A stretch of DNA of 64,000 nt from assembly GCA_019670725.1 (NCBI GenBank), contig AP024629.1, forward strand, positions 2,170,001 through 2,234,000, in the 5' to 3' direction. Below, one piece after another: positions 10,750-16,474 of this stretch. The notes beneath the pieces were generated by a model. The model saw nothing but the letters and a program-made list of their open reading frames with translations, ran no database searches and was not told the origin of the DNA. This stretch comes from Alphaproteobacteria bacterium SO-S41. Lineage in GTDB: Bacteria; Pseudomonadota; Alphaproteobacteria; Micropepsales; Micropepsaceae. The position numbers were made by a program, and so were the translations under genes. Position 1 is the stretch's first letter; every line of letters begins with the position of its first letter.

Positions 10750-10965
10750 TCACCCGTTCCAGCCGAAGACATCCTCGACGCCGACACCGAAATAGCGGGC
10801 GATGCGGAAGGCGCTTTCGAGGCTGGGCGAGTAGCGATCCTGCTCAATGGCGATGATGGTCTGGCGGGTGACGCCGATCGCCTTGCCGAGCGCGGCCTGG
10901 GTGACGGCGCCGTGCGCTTCGCGCAGCTCGCGCACGCGGTTCGTGATGGGCGGTCGCTTGCCCAT
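10750..10965 (-). CDS. XRE-family helix-turn-helix regulator (short, YozG-like)
   Basis: A 71-aa protein that is little more than one XRE helix-turn-helix: VTQAALGKAIGVTRQTIIAIEQ (about 22-43) is the HTH, followed by the SPSLESAFRIARYFGVGVEDVF helices typical of these small dimeric regulators. It is the second gene of an operon: its ATG lies 3 nt after the stop of a membrane-protein gene. Small XRE proteins encoded with a membrane partner usually repress their own promoter; here two near-identical dyads sit at the operon promoter (11388-11407 and 11429-11448). The link between protein and site is an inference from position. Confidence 0.85.
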   Translation of the reverse strand: MGKRPPITNRVRELREAHGAVTQAALGKAIGVTRQTIIAIEQDRYSPSLESAFRIARYFGVGVEDVFGWNG

Positions 10966-10968
10966 CAG

Positions 10969-11376
10969 TCAGACTCCGCGCCGGTAGTACCAGATCTGCA
11001 GGCCGTATTCGGCGAGCTGGGCGACCATCAGGCTGATCAGCGCCGCGTGGAACATGTGGCTGGGCGGATGGCCCATCAGATAAGTGCCCATCGCGAGTAC
11101 GATGCCGACGGCCAGCACGCTGCCCGAGAGGTTGCCGGCGCGGTCGGCGATCCGCCGGTCGCGCTCGTCGGCCGCGGCGCCCGCATCGCGCGGTGCGAAG
11201 ATCGCGATCGCGATTTGTCCGAACACGGATAAAATCGTCAGCACCACGACATAGGCGATCACGATGGGCAGCGGCGGCACCGCACTCGGCAGCGGCGCGA
11301 CCAGCGCGGCATAGAGCGCCGCCGTGATGACGATGATCACCGCCATCACCCAGGCGGACTTTTCGCGAAAGGGCAT
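10969..11376 (-). CDS. Small four-helix membrane protein paired with the XRE regulator
   Basis: A 135-aa integral membrane protein with four hydrophobic segments (about residues 8-30, 34-60, 85-105 and 112-128) and a charged loop between helices 2 and 3 (PRDAGAAADERDRRI). The arrangement, a four-helix DUF2178-like membrane protein followed at once by a short XRE regulator, is seen in many bacteria, but the molecular role is unknown to me. ATG 11376 is chosen (MPFREKSAW); an ATG two codons upstream is also possible. The longer frame reaching 11505 would translate the operators and is rejected. Co-transcribed with the XRE gene. Confidence 0.75.
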   Translation of the reverse strand: MPFREKSAWVMAVIIVITAALYAALVAPLPSAVPPLPIVIAYVVVLTILSVFGQIAIAIFAPRDAGAAADERDRRIADRAGNLSGSVLAVGIVLAMGTYLMGHPPSHMFHAALISLMVAQLAEYGLQIWYYRRGV

Positions 11377-11387
11377 GCACATTCTCC

Positions 11388-11448
11388 ATGTCGAAAATCT
11401 TTGACATGGATAGGCGTACCGATCTGCGATGTCAAATATTTTCGACAT
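11388..11448 (-). promoter_or_regulatory. Promoter with two operator dyads for the membrane-protein/XRE operon
   Basis: Reading the minus strand, a -35 TTGACA (11435-11430) and a -10 TATCCA (11412-11407) are separated by exactly 17 bp. Two 20-bp dyads overlap them: site B at 11429-11448 covers the -35 and, on the minus strand, differs from site A (11388-11407) at one base (ATGTCGAAAATMTTTGACAT). Site A abuts the downstream side of the -10. Two matching operators bracketing a promoter indicate repression, most likely by the XRE protein of the same operon. Confidence 0.75.
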
Positions 11449-11492
11449 TATATACTTCGCAAACCCATGACGAATCGTGATACTCGTCGTGG

Positions 11493-12305
11493 ATGGGGTG
11501 GGCATCGTTTCACAACTTCATCAAATGGGCCGGGGCTGTGATCCCGGTTGTCGTCGTCAGCGTTCTCACGCTTCTTGCGGCCGTAGAGGGATCTGAGGGA
11601 AAGCGCCCCTCGGTCGCCGCATGGAACGATACCATTTGGAACATCATCATACCTTCTCCGCAGACATGGGCGGCGGTAGGCGTCATGGCGTTTCTTTGGG
11701 TTTTACTGTTCCTCTGGAGCGGTCGAATGGCGCGCCAGTATGAAACGGTCGTAGGGCCAACGCAGAAGGTCGAGCAGGTTGGCGAGGCTGAGGTCAAAAG
11801 AGAGGTTCCTCTAGCTCAGGCTGAAAAACTTCCGCCGCTGAAGCAGCATTATGAGACCGATTTCAAAGAGGGTCGTGGCACCCTGATAATGATGGAATCT
11901 TTCAATCAGGACATCACATTTCCCGATGGGAAGATCGTTCGGATTGAGTATGCCCGCCATCTCAACTACGCCGCACGTTCGATCTTCCTCGCCATATACA
12001 TACCTGCCGACACGCGAGCCGTGGCGATCTGCGAGTATGTCAAAGATCACATCGATGACTATACGAGGTCAGACCTAGACATCGAGATGGGTGGCTCAGG
12101 TAGCGAGCCTGAGCGCTCAAGCGACCTGATTTTTACAGGGCGTGTTTTCGTCTACCACGAAGGCCATATACCTCTCGCAGATCGAGGCGCACTGGATGCC
12201 GCTTATAGAGAGAAGAACCTGAGGCTTCAGTTTCGCAGCACGGATTATGTTCTCGCCGCTATGCAGGGCAAGAAACAGGCTACTGCTGCTTCGGCGTCTT
12301 CTTAG
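11493..12305 (+). CDS. Membrane protein of unknown function in the low-GC islet
   Basis: A 270-aa protein with two N-terminal membrane segments (about residues 11-30 and 59-77), then a soluble domain (about 80-260) with no motif I recognise. The tail is Ala/Ser-rich (KKQATAASASS). Codon use and base composition are clearly more AT-rich than the flanking chromosome. The start is ATG 11493 with no clear Shine-Dalgarno site, so it could lie elsewhere. Its 3' end overlaps by 26 bp the last gene of a convergent unknown operon. The predicted topology (two helices, large C-terminal soluble domain) is an inference from hydrophobicity; function unknown. Confidence 0.6.
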   Translation: MGWASFHNFIKWAGAVIPVVVVSVLTLLAAVEGSEGKRPSVAAWNDTIWNIIIPSPQTWAAVGVMAFLWVLLFLWSGRMARQYETVVGPTQKVEQVGEAEVKREVPLAQAEKLPPLKQHYETDFKEGRGTLIMMESFNQDITFPDGKIVRIEYARHLNYAARSIFLAIYIPADTRAVAICEYVKDHIDDYTRSDLDIEMGGSGSEPERSSDLIFTGRVFVYHEGHIPLADRGALDAAYREKNLRLQFRSTDYVLAAMQGKKQATAASASS

Positions 12306-12414
12306 CCACCCTCTTCACCGCCTTCTCAAACGCGGCTTCGGACTCGTCGCACTCAAGCTGCTTGGCGAGGGCTTTAAACTTCTCGGATTGCGTCGGGGTA
12401 TCTTGCTTGCTCAT
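12280..12414 (-). CDS. Small charged protein (ECDESEAAF family), 44 aa
   Basis: Starts at ATG 12414, overlapping the stop of the upstream gene by four bases (ATGA), so it is translationally coupled. The 44-aa product is highly charged and probably helical; its core is AKQLECDESEAAFEKAVKRVAKK. Small proteins of this type with an L-E-x-D-E-S-E-x-x-F core occur in many alphaproteobacteria with no known role. The 42 bases at 12326-12367 recur at 15619-15660 with a single mismatch, and a more decayed copy of the tail lies at 15306-15374. It is the third gene of a three-gene overlapping operon. Confidence 0.6.
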   Translation of the reverse strand: MSKQDTPTQSEKFKALAKQLECDESEAAFEKAVKRVAKKTPKQQ

Positions 12415-13148
12415 GCCGCTAACCGCTGAAGCTGACTGGCGAGACTGCCTGCCGGCAAAGTCGGGGCGCCAACGCCAAGCAGGGCGAGGTCCGCAGTCTT
12501 CCAAGGCGAAGTGTCATCATAGACTATCCGCTGGATGACGTTGGGATTGTGCGCTTGGCTGACATCCAAATGCGAGACTATCGCCGAATTAATCGCGTTG
12601 GCGTCTTGCACCACGGCGTCAATCACAAGCGTCTTGCCGTTGATCTCAAGGCCAAAGTCGAACAGGTGCTTTTTCAAACTAGCGCCCGTCGCATGGGCGC
12701 CGCGAGAGGCCTTAATCGACGGGACCAGACGAATGATCTCATTGACCCGTTCCTTGAAGTGAACAGCGGCCTGTTTGCGAGCGTGTGCACGCCTCAAGCG
12801 ATTGTCGGCTGCAATGCTCTGCTCGATGATCATTGGAACCCAACCCGTAAGTTCTTCCGGGCATACGCCAGACCGGAAAATCCAACCCGACTGGCTGACC
12901 TCAAGACCGTATGCCTTCGCCGCGTTTAGGTGCTTCCGTGCGTCGTCGCCTCCACCAGCGGATATGAACTCCCTGATCGCACCGCCGCCGTCTGACACGA
13001 CAAAGGAGCGTTCGCCGCCCTCGATATAGGCCTGCGCACCGGTGCCGCTTTGATATGAGAACAGCGAGGGTATCACGACGAAGCGGCCCGCCTCGTAAGG
13101 CTGGCTGGCTGGCCGCATCAAGTGTGTGATCATCTCCAGCATGGTCAA
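12411..13148 (-). CDS. Unknown protein, possibly DUF1828/DUF1829-like
   Basis: A 245-aa soluble protein. The N-terminal part (GRFVVIPSLFSYQSG, then IEGGERSFVVSDGGGAIREF) has the strand-and-turn pattern of DUF1828, and the C-terminal part (INGKTLVIDAVV ... IVYDDTSPWKTADLALL) resembles DUF1829, domains that commonly occur together. This is recognition by pattern only and is not certain. The start is TTG 13148, which overlaps the stop of the upstream gene (TTGA), or ATG 13142 two codons later. It is coupled by four-base overlaps to both neighbours. Base composition is lower in GC than the surrounding core genes. Function unknown; an accessory or defence role is conceivable but unproven. Confidence 0.55.
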   Translation of the reverse strand: MTMLEMITHLMRPASQPYEAGRFVVIPSLFSYQSGTGAQAYIEGGERSFVVSDGGGAIREFISAGGGDDARKHLNAAKAYGLEVSQSGWIFRSGVCPEELTGWVPMIIEQSIAADNRLRRAHARKQAAVHFKERVNEIIRLVPSIKASRGAHATGASLKKHLFDFGLEINGKTLVIDAVVQDANAINSAIVSHLDVSQAHNPNVIQRIVYDDTSPWKTADLALLGVGAPTLPAGSLASQLQRLAA

Positions 13149-13681
13149 ACCAAGTCGTCAGGTGGTCGAAGAGGCATTACAGAGTTGGAACATTCAATGT
13201 TCGCTTCTCCGCAGAAATACCGGAACGCGCTTTCGAAAGACTGAACGTTGCCGGGCAGGAGTCTCGCAAAGAAAAGGTCCGCAGGCAACGCGCGGTCTGT
13301 CGCTATGTGGCGGTTGTCATCCCAAAGGTGGGCGTGGCGTGTGCGTATCCACCCAACCCGAATATCGGGGGGCATCTGAATGCCCTTGTGGATGCGGTTC
13401 CAGTGTAGCGCGTCATCGGCGTAGCACATGCGTGCCACCGGGCCTTCTTGCCCAGGACCTGGCCTATACGAAATCACTTGAACCACGGCTCGCTCAAATC
13501 CGGTGCGAGGATACGCGTCGATCACAAGGCGCAGATCGCAGATGCCTTCGTCTGTAAGAAGTGGTGATACCCAACGGTGATTGCCATAGGGGCTAGGCTG
13601 CCAAGTGTCAGAGCCGACCACAACTTTGCGCGTAGCCATCAGAGCGTCTATTCGCGCGCGAGTTTGGAGCGGGAGATTCAA
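13145..13681 (-). CDS. Hypothetical protein heading a three-gene overlapping operon
   Basis: Up to 178 aa from TTG 13681; ATG 13639 (MATRKVVVGSD) would give 164 aa and may be the real start, since neither start has a clear ribosome site. The protein is soluble and rich in Trp, His, Arg and Asp. Notable segments are WQPSPYGNHRWVSPLLTDEG, RTRHAHLWDDNRHIATD and a Cys-containing tail (FRYFCGEANIECSNS). I do not recognise a family. Its stop overlaps the start of the next gene by four bases, so the three genes probably act together. It lies between the transposase and the unknown pair in the low-GC islet. Confidence 0.5.
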   Translation of the reverse strand: MNLPLQTRARIDALMATRKVVVGSDTWQPSPYGNHRWVSPLLTDEGICDLRLVIDAYPRTGFERAVVQVISYRPGPGQEGPVARMCYADDALHWNRIHKGIQMPPDIRVGWIRTRHAHLWDDNRHIATDRALPADLFFARLLPGNVQSFESAFRYFCGEANIECSNSVMPLRPPDDLV

Positions 13682-13793
13682 GTCAAAGACTCAGCCAGTC
13701 GGGTTCAGTAATAGAACCCGCCTTTCTACTGTCCTGCAACTTTCGCTCTACTTCGTCCGCCAACGCGCCCGGCGGTTCCGACCACTTACCCGT

Positions 13794-14732
13794 TCACGCG
13801 AGCCGCTTGTCAGGCCCCCGATAAGTGAGGCGCTTGCCGACGATGCCCTCAAGCGCCTTGATCGCGCGGGCTTCGTCGTCCACGCCCTTCGCGGCACGGT
13901 TGGAATAGCGGAAGTCGAACTCAGCCAGATAGCGGTGCAGGTGCTTCTTGCTGGCCTTCTGATAGACGCCGCGCATGCCGCGCTTGAAGATACCGAAATA
14001 GCCTTCAACCGTGTTGCTGTGGATGGTCGGATCGGCGGCGTTCACATACTCGCCAGCGGCATGGCTGGTCGTGCCGTGCTGGGCGAACTCGCCGCCGATG
14101 ACGCGGTAGTGGTGGGCTTCGTCCGTCATAAGGCGCGCTTCCTTCGCGATAGCTTCGCGCAGGATCGGCTCAATCGTACTGGCCTTCAGATCGTCCACGA
14201 CATGAGAGCGGGCAACGCCAGTCTCGCGGTCGAGAAGCGTCAGCACCTTGATCTTGTGGGCCGCGCCGCGACCGACCTTCTTGCCGGGCTCGCGACCGTA
14301 GAACGTCTCGTCCACTTCAACGGCACCGCCAGCGCCACCAAACGGCGCGAGAGCGCCGGAACGCATGGCCTCGCGGATACGGTGCTCAAGGAACCACGCC
14401 GTCTTGTAGGTAATCTCAAGCGTGCGGTGCAGCTGGTGGGCGCTGACGCCCTTCTTGCTGCTGCACATGAGGTAAATGGCCTGAAGCCACTTCGTCAGCG
14501 GCAGGTGGCTGTCCTCAAAGATCGTGCCAATGCGCACCGTGAACTGCTTACGGCAATCGCCGCACTTCTTAAGGCCCATACGGACCTTCTTTTCGGGGTT
14601 CGGTTTGATCGCGCCGATCCGGCCCATGCAGCCGCAGTGCGGACAGACAGGCGAGCCGTTCCAGATGATGCCTTCAACGAACGCGAAGGCGGCGGCTTCA
14701 TCGTGGAAATAGGGCTTGGACAGAACAGACAT
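13794..14732 (-). CDS. IS1595-family transposase (ISXO2-like)
   Basis: A 312-aa DDE-type transposase. An N-terminal zinc ribbon with C-P-H-C ... C-G-D-C (about residues 32-60) precedes the ISXO2-like catalytic domain (about 125-290). The first acid lies in VEVDETFYG, the second in LMTDEAHHY, and the closing SNTVEGYFGIFKRG supplies Asn/Glu, the DDE/N pattern of IS1595. ATG 14732 has AAGGAG 7 nt upstream. The frame is intact, but I could find no convincing terminal inverted repeats or target duplication, so it may be an immobile or captured copy. Its promoter contains a 46-bp dyad related to the XRE operators. Confidence 0.88.
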   Translation of the reverse strand: MSVLSKPYFHDEAAAFAFVEGIIWNGSPVCPHCGCMGRIGAIKPNPEKKVRMGLKKCGDCRKQFTVRIGTIFEDSHLPLTKWLQAIYLMCSSKKGVSAHQLHRTLEITYKTAWFLEHRIREAMRSGALAPFGGAGGAVEVDETFYGREPGKKVGRGAAHKIKVLTLLDRETGVARSHVVDDLKASTIEPILREAIAKEARLMTDEAHHYRVIGGEFAQHGTTSHAAGEYVNAADPTIHSNTVEGYFGIFKRGMRGVYQKASKKHLHRYLAEFDFRYSNRAAKGVDDEARAIKALEGIVGKRLTYRGPDKRLA

Positions 14733-14751
14733 CGGGCATCTCCTTGAGCCC

Positions 14752-14820
14752 GTTATGATTCATGTCCTTGGGTTTGTCAAATATATAATGTCGAATATTT
14801 TGGACATTATATATTTGGCA
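14752..14820 (-). promoter_or_regulatory. 46-bp dyad and promoter upstream of the transposase
   Basis: Two 18-base arms at 14775-14792 and 14803-14820 (TGTCAAATATATAATGTC against TGCCAAATATATAATGTC, 17/18 complementary) flank a 10-bp AT-rich centre. The inner ATGTC-N10-GACAT (14788-14807) matches the operators of the XRE operon. On the minus strand a -35 TTGACA (14780-14775) and a -10 CATAAC (14757-14752) with a 17-bp spacer point to the transposase, so the dyad would control it. Confidence 0.65.
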
Positions 14821-14887
14821 GACCGCGCGCTACCCTGCCTGACATTTCCGTTAGGTAAGCGGAAGGTTTGGGCGCTTACTCCAACGC

Positions 14888-15082
14888 ATGCAAGACAACC
14901 TAACCCGCGCAGAGCGGGCCGAAGGGCTGATCGATTTACATGGGGATCAGTCTTCCGCCGCGGCGATCCTCCAATGCAATGACACGCAGGAAGACGTGGA
15001 CATGATCGAAGCGTTCCGGGTCCTTATGGCCGTCTGGGACGCTGAAGACGCAGCGGAGCGCACGCCTCTTATCCATCGTTGA
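14888..15082 (+). CDS. Possible small protein, 64 aa
   Basis: An acidic, soluble reading frame (MQDNLTRAERAEGLIDLHG...) with the amino-acid balance of a real protein, but no clear ribosome site and no family I recognise. It lies between the transposase dyad and the decayed fragments. The real start could be elsewhere. Confidence 0.3.
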   Translation: MQDNLTRAERAEGLIDLHGDQSSAAAILQCNDTQEDVDMIEAFRVLMAVWDAEDAAERTPLIHR

Positions 15083-15094
15083 CACGCATCAAGT

Positions 15095-15346
15095 TTGAGC
15101 GCGTTAGCGTGGGCCGTGCCCTACATTGTGAAGAGTCGCTCGCGCGGCCCGCCAGACGCAATACTAAGCGTTTGGCGCGATACCGCATTGGAGGCACTCG
15201 TAACTGCCCGCATCCGCCAATCGGCAAATTTGCTTGTGACGATCTATGACGTTGAGGCGGAGCAGGACATCACGATCGGCACACTAATAGCCCGGATCGA
15301 GGCTCCTACGCCTTTGGTTTGGATCGATCCTTCACCGAAGCCTTGA
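15095..15346 (+). CDS. Possible small protein, 83 aa
   Basis: An open frame from TTG 15095 (or GTG 15116) in the same strand as the preceding 64-aa frame. It reads plausibly as protein (LVTIYDVEAEQDITIGTLIARIE) but has no recognised family, no Shine-Dalgarno site, and overlaps a gene fragment on the other strand. Weakly supported. Confidence 0.22.
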   Translation: MSALAWAVPYIVKSRSRGPPDAILSVWRDTALEALVTARIRQSANLLVTIYDVEAEQDITIGTLIARIEAPTPLVWIDPSPKP

Positions 15347-15374
15347 GCGCGATCTTCCTAAGCTTCTCGTCAAA
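15306..15374 (-). pseudogene. Decayed C-terminal fragment of an ECDESEAAF-type small gene
   Basis: On the minus strand this encodes FDEKLRKIALKASVKDR... up to a TAG, matching the FDEKLKKI segment of the fragment at 15561-15672. The 5' part is missing: upstream of the Phe codon the sequence turns into the ATATATTTGGCAGACC repeat shared with the transposase dyad, which marks a junction. It has no start codon of its own. Confidence 0.5.
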
Positions 15375-15390
15375 ATATATTTGGCAGACC
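15375..15390. repeat. 16-bp direct repeat shared with the transposase dyad
   Basis: ATATATTTGGCAGACC here is identical to 14809-14824, the outer right arm of the 46-bp dyad, and a diverged version lies at 11448-11463 beside the XRE operators. It abuts the truncated gene fragment, so it looks like the edge of an insertion or recombination event. Confidence 0.65.
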
Positions 15391-15564: not shown

Positions 15565-15672
15565 TTCGGCATCGCCTTCTTCGACTCTGGCTTCCTGAAG
15601 ATCTTCTTCAGCTTCTCGTCAAACGCGGCTTCGGACTCGTCGCACTCAAGCTGCCTGGCGTCTTTTATAGCC
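15561..15672 (-). pseudogene. Headless copy of the ECDESEAAF small gene
   Basis: Encodes DARQLECDESEAAFDEKLKK... to TGA 15563-15561. Bases 15619-15660 match 12326-12367 at 41 of 42 positions. In this frame I find no ATG, GTG or TTG start before it runs into the upstream gene, so it reads as a truncated copy. The match to the intact 44-aa gene 3.3 kb away implies recent duplication or exchange. Confidence 0.5.
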
Positions 15673-15852
15673 TCACCGCCGCCAGCCCTTCGGGGCCGCG
15701 GTGTCTTTCTTCGCCGCCGGCGGCGGGGTCTTCAGGGCGCGAAGGGCGTCGTTGGAGTCGTTGGTGGGTTGCACGCCGTCACTGGCTCTCATCAGGAGCA
15801 AGACGACGCGCAGTCCGAGGATCAAGATCCCGCCCAGAATACCCCAGGTCAT
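15673..15852 (-). CDS. Small membrane protein, 59 aa
   Basis: ATG 15852 follows a GAAAGGG ribosome site. One hydrophobic helix (MTWGILGGILILGLRVVLLLM, residues 1-21) is followed by a polar tail rich in Pro, Ala and Lys (TPPPAAKKDTAAPKG). The longer frame to 15978 is rejected because it ignores this ribosome site. Family unknown; the small membrane gene at 15406-15564 may be part of the same transcript. Confidence 0.5.
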   Translation of the reverse strand: MTWGILGGILILGLRVVLLLMRASDGVQPTNDSNDALRALKTPPPAAKKDTAAPKGWRR

Positions 15853-16051
15853 CGGCACACCCTTTCGATGGCTGAGGATCGCACAAATGCCGGGATTTGG
15901 GACTGCGGCGGACTGCCGCCGCGCGTGGCGCGCCTGCTGCAACGGCAAAGGCCCCGTCCTCCGGGGAGGGCGGGGCAAGTCGATGGAAACGGCAGATGGG
16001 GATCCGCCGATGAGGTGACGGGCGGCGGCGCGGTTTGTGACCGCTTGCGGT

Positions 16052-16474
16052 TCAGCCGGCGAGGGCCGCTTTCACGCGTTCGGCATTCGCCTTCAGCACG
16101 TCTGGCGCTTCCATGCCGCGGGCGTGGAATTTCAGGTCGATGCCGGCCCAGCGCGGGATGACGTGGAAGTGGAGGTGGAAGACGGTCTGGCCGGCTTCCG
16201 AGCCGTTGAGCTGGATCACCATGACGCCCGGCGCGCCGGTGGCGGCCTTCACCGCAGCGGCGATCTTCTGGGTCGTTGCGATGGTCGCCTGCAGCGCGTC
16301 GGTGGAGGTGTCGATGATGCCCGTGCCGGCGTTCTTGGGGATGATCAGCGTGTGGCAGTCGGCCTGGGGCATGATGTCCATGAAGGCCAGCGTCGCGTCG
16401 TCCTCGTAGACTTTGTGACAGGGCAATTCGCCGCGCAGGATTCTGGCGAAGATGTTGCCGGGGTCGTATGTCAT
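16052..16474 (-). CDS. HIT-family (histidine triad) nucleotide hydrolase
   Basis: A 140-aa HINT-like protein; such enzymes hydrolyse adenosine phosphoramidates and related acyl-adenylates in the cytoplasm. The triad HLHFHVIP (about residues 103-110) is complete, and the N-terminal FARILRGELPCHKVYEDD is the usual opening of the Hint branch. ATG 16474 gives the family length. It is divergent from the BtuF-like gene, whose likely TTG start is 33 bp away. A cellular substrate cannot be deduced. Confidence 0.92.
   Translation of the reverse strand: MTYDPGNIFARILRGELPCHKVYEDDATLAFMDIMPQADCHTLIIPKNAGTGIIDTSTDALQATIATTQKIAAAVKAATGAPGVMVIQLNGSEAGQTVFHLHFHVIPRWAGIDLKFHARGMEAPDVLKANAERVKAALAG

Follow-up and report, generated by a model that had tools for sequence, protein, structure and literature searches.

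The 46-bp near-perfect palindrome at positions 14775-14820 of the window (the whole 64,000-nucleotide stretch of the Alphaproteobacteria bacterium SO-S41 genome that was analysed) is very probably the place where the ends of two IS1595-type elements meet across the 8-bp target site duplication of one of them, element 1, at a repressor-operator target. Read from left to right, it comprises the right terminal inverted repeat (TIR) of element 1, then the 8-bp duplication, then the left end (TIR) of element 2, a makeup that the sequence explains securely. The palindrome is near-perfect because TIRs are inverted repeats and the two ends face each other across 8 bp.

Composition of the palindrome

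The 46-bp palindrome departs far from chance expectation. It reads TGTCAAATATATAATGTC-GAATATTTTG-GACATTATATATTTGGCA, and the sequence-only reading that reported it is confirmed in that the 18-nt arms are complementary at 17 of 18 positions; the dyad can be followed out to 25-nt arms with an 88% match. DNA folding of 14769-14826 gave z = -6.5, a value equalled by none of 200 shuffles in the shuffle control, and the pattern of the central 20-mer, with 0.00 matches expected in the window, has six there, on both strands of three sites. The same reading claimed a 16-bp direct repeat at 15375-15390 and a version with the dyad at 11429-11463; both are present, and an extra dyad that it overlooked lies at 11388-11407. 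Genome-wide (4.44 Mb), the TIR core ATTATATAYTTSRCARACC is confined to these four places, except for one site elsewhere with three mismatches.

A motif like GGCGAYRTTATACTTGACA was found upstream of most of about 30 transposase relatives from the same bacterial family, at the edge of otherwise unrelated flanks, and its recurrence pointed to a transposon end as the source of one palindrome arm. Comparison of the flanks, which had been proposed as a check, yielded the target duplication AATATTTT and the element boundaries, and matching far ends with an 8-bp repeat outside them were found in the window as well as in almost every relative with good coverage. The matching TIR pair and flanking 8-bp repeat in the window therefore identify the core of the palindrome as a target site duplication and its left arm as the right TIR. 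The first genome-wide reading, an XRE operator upstream of two genes, is thereby superseded; none of the other 99 genomes carries the pattern, because its arms are transposon ends. The palindrome was likewise rejected as a conserved transposase promoter, the relatives having only the TIR half in common.

Element 1 and its genes

Element 1 is a complete transposon of 3,351 bp (11443-14793, minus strand) bounded by TIRs that match at 17 of 20 positions and by an exact 8-bp duplication. The left TIR, CGACATTATATACTTCGCAAACCCA, occupies 11443-11467 on the plus strand and the right, transposase-side TIR, CGACATTATATATTTGACAAACCCA, occupies 14769-14793 on the minus strand, the paired ends reading CGACATTATATACTTCGCAAACCC from 11443 and CGACATTATATATTTGACAAACCC from 14793 on the minus strand. 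The two copies of AATATTTT lie immediately outside, the left one at 11435-11442, centred on the dyad axis of operator 1 (see below), and the right one at 14794-14801, where it forms the palindrome core. The tips begin with CG, compared with the family's usual GG. A search for further copies of the element ends across the 4.44-Mb genome found none; element 1 is single-copy in its genome, so its boundaries have no confirmation from a second copy.

The transposase gene (13794-14732, minus strand) encodes 312 aa with a zinc ribbon and an ISXO2-like DDE domain. The protein matched DDE_Tnp_IS1595, the ISXO2-like catalytic domain, with an E value of 6.3e-31, an N-terminal Zn_ribbon with an E value of 1.1e-9, and the NCBIfam model transpos_IS1595 with 201 bits (cut-off 75). 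Judged by the DDE domain, the zinc ribbon, the TIRs matching at 17 of 20 positions and the exact 8-bp duplication, element 1 can be assigned to the IS1595 family. TTGACA inside its right TIR is likely to serve the transposase gene as its -35 box, although this proposed promoter received no score in the promoter scan.

Element 1 also carries cargo. Three genes, encoding 270 aa with N-terminal hydrophobic stretches (11493-12305, plus strand), 245 aa (12411-13148, minus strand) and 178 aa (13145-13681, minus strand), had no credible Pfam or PADLOC match. A small ORF, SEKFKALAKQLECDESEAAFEKAVKRVAKK, lies at 12280-12420 on the minus strand, its open frame continuing to 12504, and relatives of this ORF (12280-12504) sit within 31 other elements; its product is possibly an accessory transposition or target-choice protein.

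Insertion into operator 1 of the XRE operon

To its left, element 1 is flanked by the promoter of a minus-strand operon that consists of a DUF2178-like membrane protein gene (10969-11376, a match below the Pfam cut-off) and an XRE/HTH_3 regulator gene encoding 71 aa (10750-10965). Two putative operators precede it on the same strand, operator 1, ATGTCGAAAATATTTGACAT, at 11429-11448, whose TTGACA is a likely -35 box, and operator 2, ATGTCAAAGATTTTCGACAT, at 11388-11407. The central 8 bp of operator 1 are exactly AATATTTT, and the version at 11429-11463 is the left end of element 1 fused to the invaded operator. An empty site was found in the same-genus genome G003, where the order is HIT gene, operator 1, operator 2, DUF2178-like gene, XRE gene and ClpA: the operator ATGTCGAATATATTTGACAT directly follows the HIT gene, the second operator lies 41 nt further and the orthologous operon comes next. 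The HIT-family gene of the window, directly upstream of operator 1 in G003, is at 16052-16474 on the minus strand, and about 4.6 kb of the window is missing from the G003 locus. Operator pairs are conserved upstream of the XRE orthologues in G003, G032 and G276; no consensus operator was found in the 900 bp upstream of the orthologue in G336. By this comparison, the dyad centre of operator 1, uninterrupted in G003, is identified as the target of element 1.

The insertion duplicated the 8 bp of AATATTTT on either side of 11443-14793. Because the element 1 tip ATGTCG stands in for the lost half-site, ATGTCGAAAATATTTGACAT is intact at the host promoter. The operator-like core of the palindrome, ATGTCGAATATTTTGGACAT (14788-14807), fits the operator consensus as well, with both halves supplied by transposon tips, and sits about 14 nt upstream of the presumed transposase -35 box and not over the promoter core. 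The element tips (ATGTCG and GGACAT) resemble the operator half-site, and insertion would therefore have rebuilt the host operator and created a further one next to the transposase. Both of these operators may be bound by the XRE protein, and that the transposase is regulated by the re-created one is a conjecture. A solitary operator-like dyad, TTGTCAAAAATATTAGACAT, was also observed far from the XRE operon, at C1:674861-674880 (L015 2001-2020), and is a possible further target of the XRE regulator.

Remnants of two further elements

The right arm of the palindrome belongs to the left TIR of element 2, GGACATTATATATTTGGCAGACC (14802-14824, plus strand), which matches the left TIR of element 1 at 19 of 23 positions and the right TIR at 20 of 23. 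It also matches a relative's TIR at 17 of 20 positions, a score unreached in 2,120 background draws, and its tip begins with GG. Element 2 is probably a remnant on the minus strand, extending from 14802 to 15374, that comprises the cargo-side end and is cut within the shared cargo ORF; FDEKLRKI, a C-terminal piece of that ORF, lies at its right edge (about 15332-15374, minus strand). The direct repeat at 15375-15390 is the TIR of element 3 without its tip, fused at 15374/15375 to the cargo piece of element 2. Element 3 would extend from 15375 to approximately 15660 on the minus strand, and a C-terminal piece of the shared cargo ORF, ECDESEAAFDEKLKKIF, lies within it at 15605-15660 (minus strand). 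We read these as two truncated elements of the same orientation stacked behind element 1, with exact limits that we infer. The remnants are separated from the HIT gene by about 390 bp (15661-16050) that contain a short ORF and are also absent from the empty site of G003.

In the proposed order of events, element 2 would already have been in place and the XRE promoter would have read ATGTCA-AATATTTT-GGACATTATATATTTGG when element 1 landed again on the same 8 bp. One copy of AATATTTT now separates the right TIR of element 1 from the left TIR of the truncated element 2. Element 3 and the truncations would follow from further insertion and deletion. A third copy of AATATTTT, expected beyond element 2, was not found, the window having just two occurrences of the sequence; that element 2 was there earlier is therefore argued from its TIR.

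Alternative explanations of the palindrome

We considered whether the palindrome is instead a genuine XRE operator, selected to control the transposase, with its likeness to a transposon end being secondary. This is unlikely, if not negligibly so: the core ATGTCGAATATTTTGGACAT does fit the XRE operator consensus just upstream of the transposase gene, but the arms, which match the TIR, reach well past the operator (ATTATATATTTG.CA.ACC), every base is accounted for by the 8-bp duplication together with the element's other end, and the TIRs of most related transposases have no such core. A transposon junction and an XRE operator are compatible, and the junction may double as an operator. The abutting ends also recall a joined-ends (IR-IR junction) intermediate of the IS30/IS3/IS21 kind, arising by circularisation or dimerisation of one element, and IS30 likewise inserts beside ends of its own as well as in near-palindromic hot spots (PMC9333248). 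We regard such an intermediate as very improbable here, where the spacer is not 2 bp but the 8-bp duplication of element 1, a second copy of AATATTTT lies at 11435-11442, and the two ends, which are not identical in sequence, come from different elements.

The fold (z = -6.5) would suit a transcription terminator or a cruciform-forming hairpin; no terminator-like site with a GC-rich stem and a T tract was found, however, and the stem is nearly all A-T and lies upstream of a gene rather than after one, which leaves this explanation with hardly any likelihood. Finally, the right arm could be a displaced host operator half with a chance likeness to a TIR and not a second element end, given that the duplication followed by GGACAT could be an old operator half (the duplication followed by CGACAT). 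The chance of this is very small, as the match continues for 17 more bases (TATATATTTGGCAGACC), the operator in G003 is followed by TCCGATTCC instead, and cargo-ORF pieces of the same element group lie beyond (15340-15374 and 15605-15660).

With the palindrome read as the junction of two transposon ends, the three roles offered for it in the sequence-only reading are partly supported. The end of a small mobile element was the right guess, except that two ends of two elements meet. The palindrome is not a site-specific recombination site, no recombinase and no crossover core being seen. A promoter cassette is apt in the limited sense that the TTGACA box of the transposase lies inside the TIR and that the centre resembles the operator of the neighbouring repressor; as the whole explanation, promoter cassette or operator was dropped once the TIR and duplication emerged. 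Absence of the unit outside this locus, which had been named as evidence against such a module, holds for the exact 46-mer in this genome, although other genomes have junctions built in the same way from different TIR and duplication sequences.

Recurrence of the junction among related elements

We called an element where a TIR pair matching at 13 or more of 20 positions was flanked by an exact 8-bp duplication, and 106 of 142 related transposase copies qualified, the sample being the nearest transposase relatives by sequence and not a random draw, and the duplication copies being identical by search design. Control searches with reversed, shuffled and swapped flanks returned 1, 2 and 2 of 142. 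Tips among the other relatives are mostly GG, with some CC or CG.

In about a dozen of the 106 elements, from Mesorhizobium and others, another TIR lies directly beyond the 8-bp duplication. L186 (Mesorhizobium kowhaii) has two complete elements and a third end, with CACATAAA as the spacer each time, in three copies, which is the pattern expected from repeated landing on a single 8-bp target; the window's palindrome is therefore one instance of a recurring structure. A separate observation concerns the Mesorhizobium elements L167, L168, L171, L180, L184, L186, L188, L190, L193, L206 and L207, which accumulate beside GTTCACGGTTTGAAC, several of them stacked end to end; the neighbour in L171 and L206 is an mmcB-like gene (a profile match for L171).

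Target choice across the 106 elements

Matches to binding sites of host proteins were frequent next to the insertions, with expected counts taken from the flanks within 1.5 kb as background and sites classified after inspection. GAACN7GAAC, which we take from its consensus and the neighbouring genes to be the alphaproteobacterial LexA box, lies within 26 nt of 18 of the 106 sites (0.36 expected). The gap is exactly 4 nt in 14 of these 18 (L135, L143, L148, L156, L162, L163, L164, L172, L175, L177, L191, L192, L200 and L203), with the same box face every time. GTTCN7GAAC accompanies 11 of the 106 sites, in Mesorhizobium (0.13 expected). A dif-like core, on the same grounds presumably the XerCD dif site, stands at one fixed offset from eight sites in eight different genomes (L103, L108, L113, L114, L115, L117, L118 and L120; 0.06 expected). 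L095 is at a recA promoter, and the neighbouring genes identified by profile include RecA, MmcB and YifB/ComM, consistent with SOS promoters. From genome to genome, similar promoters carry different duplications, an argument for independent events.

Eight of the 106 elements have an XRE homologue at most 1.1 kb away with its promoter towards the element. Five of these eight, and none of the 98 remaining elements, have tips that read [A/C/G]G[A/G]CATTAT or CGACATTAT (Fisher p 5.5e-7, with no correction for relatedness or for the post hoc choice of pattern). Target types are clustered on the transposase tree, with 31 changes compared with 53 in shuffles, none of 200 being as low. We rejected the idea that insertion in this group is invariably at a dyad centre, the mean dyad score being no different from background (p 0.12); strong dyads are nevertheless over-represented, at 10 of 106 sites versus 1.2% of the background. 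Elements L078, L080, L083, L084, L104, L106, L110 and L125 are inserted in the loop of hairpins of the CCTCCC-N-GGGAGG type or of other strong dyads, and L081, L096, L097, L098, L119, L157 and L205 lie 2-3 nt from a GGTATNNNNATACC palindrome, several of them beside rplM/rpsI.

The enrichment of regulator-binding sites (LexA, dif and XRE) among the targets is well supported statistically, and the group appears to have a general preference for targets beside the sites of DNA-binding proteins (LexA, XerCD at dif, XRE repressors). We propose tentatively, as a possibility somewhat short of probable, that this widespread IS1595-type group picks sites occupied by host DNA-binding proteins (LexA/SOS boxes at the fixed 4-nt offset, XerCD dif and XRE operators) and that the tips of XRE-targeting elements rebuild the displaced operator half, so that the promoter would stay regulated and the transposase would come under the same repressor.

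Discussion

IS1595-family transposases are related to those of eukaryotic Merlin elements, and an N-terminal zinc ribbon is present in all IS1595 groups except IS1016; GG tips, recorded for Merlin, are a frequent feature and not a strict criterion. The family is characterised by an ISXO2-like transposase domain, a zinc ribbon, TIRs and 8-bp target duplications (PMC8101967), all of which element 1 shares. Element 1 differs in its tips, CGACATTAT and not GG-, in its several cargo genes and in being stacked on another element at one 8-bp target within an operator. A preference for sites used by the DNA-binding protein of another system is known from the res-site hunting transposons Tn5053/Tn402, which are a different element class with 5-bp duplications and res sites. 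The dual targeting of IS30, whose transposase attacks the target strands 2 bp apart, similarly leads to insertion beside the ends of resident copies and into palindromes (PMC9333248), but IS30 belongs to another transposase family and its spacer is the 2-bp IR-IR junction, whereas the spacer here is the 8-bp target duplication. Selective insertion into a defined class of extragenic palindromes is also seen with ISPpu9, ISPa11, ISRm22 and others, which target REP palindromes (PMC1525189). Those insertion sequences are of a different transposase family from the IS1595-type elements described here, whose targets are regulator-binding sites (LexA box, dif, XRE operator) and hairpins, at fixed offsets. 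No earlier report of such targeting was found in the open-access literature searched.

A palindrome resembling a regulatory or recombination module is thus accounted for, base by base, as a transposon-transposon junction. The related elements give a testable rule, in which members of one IS family home on regulator-binding sites (SOS boxes at recA, mmcB and comM/yifB-type promoters, and chromosome dif) at fixed distances. If a host protein guides the elements, a bacterial IS family would be choosing its targets in a new way and would readily supply site-directed transposases, and transposon load would be tied to SOS and repressor circuits.
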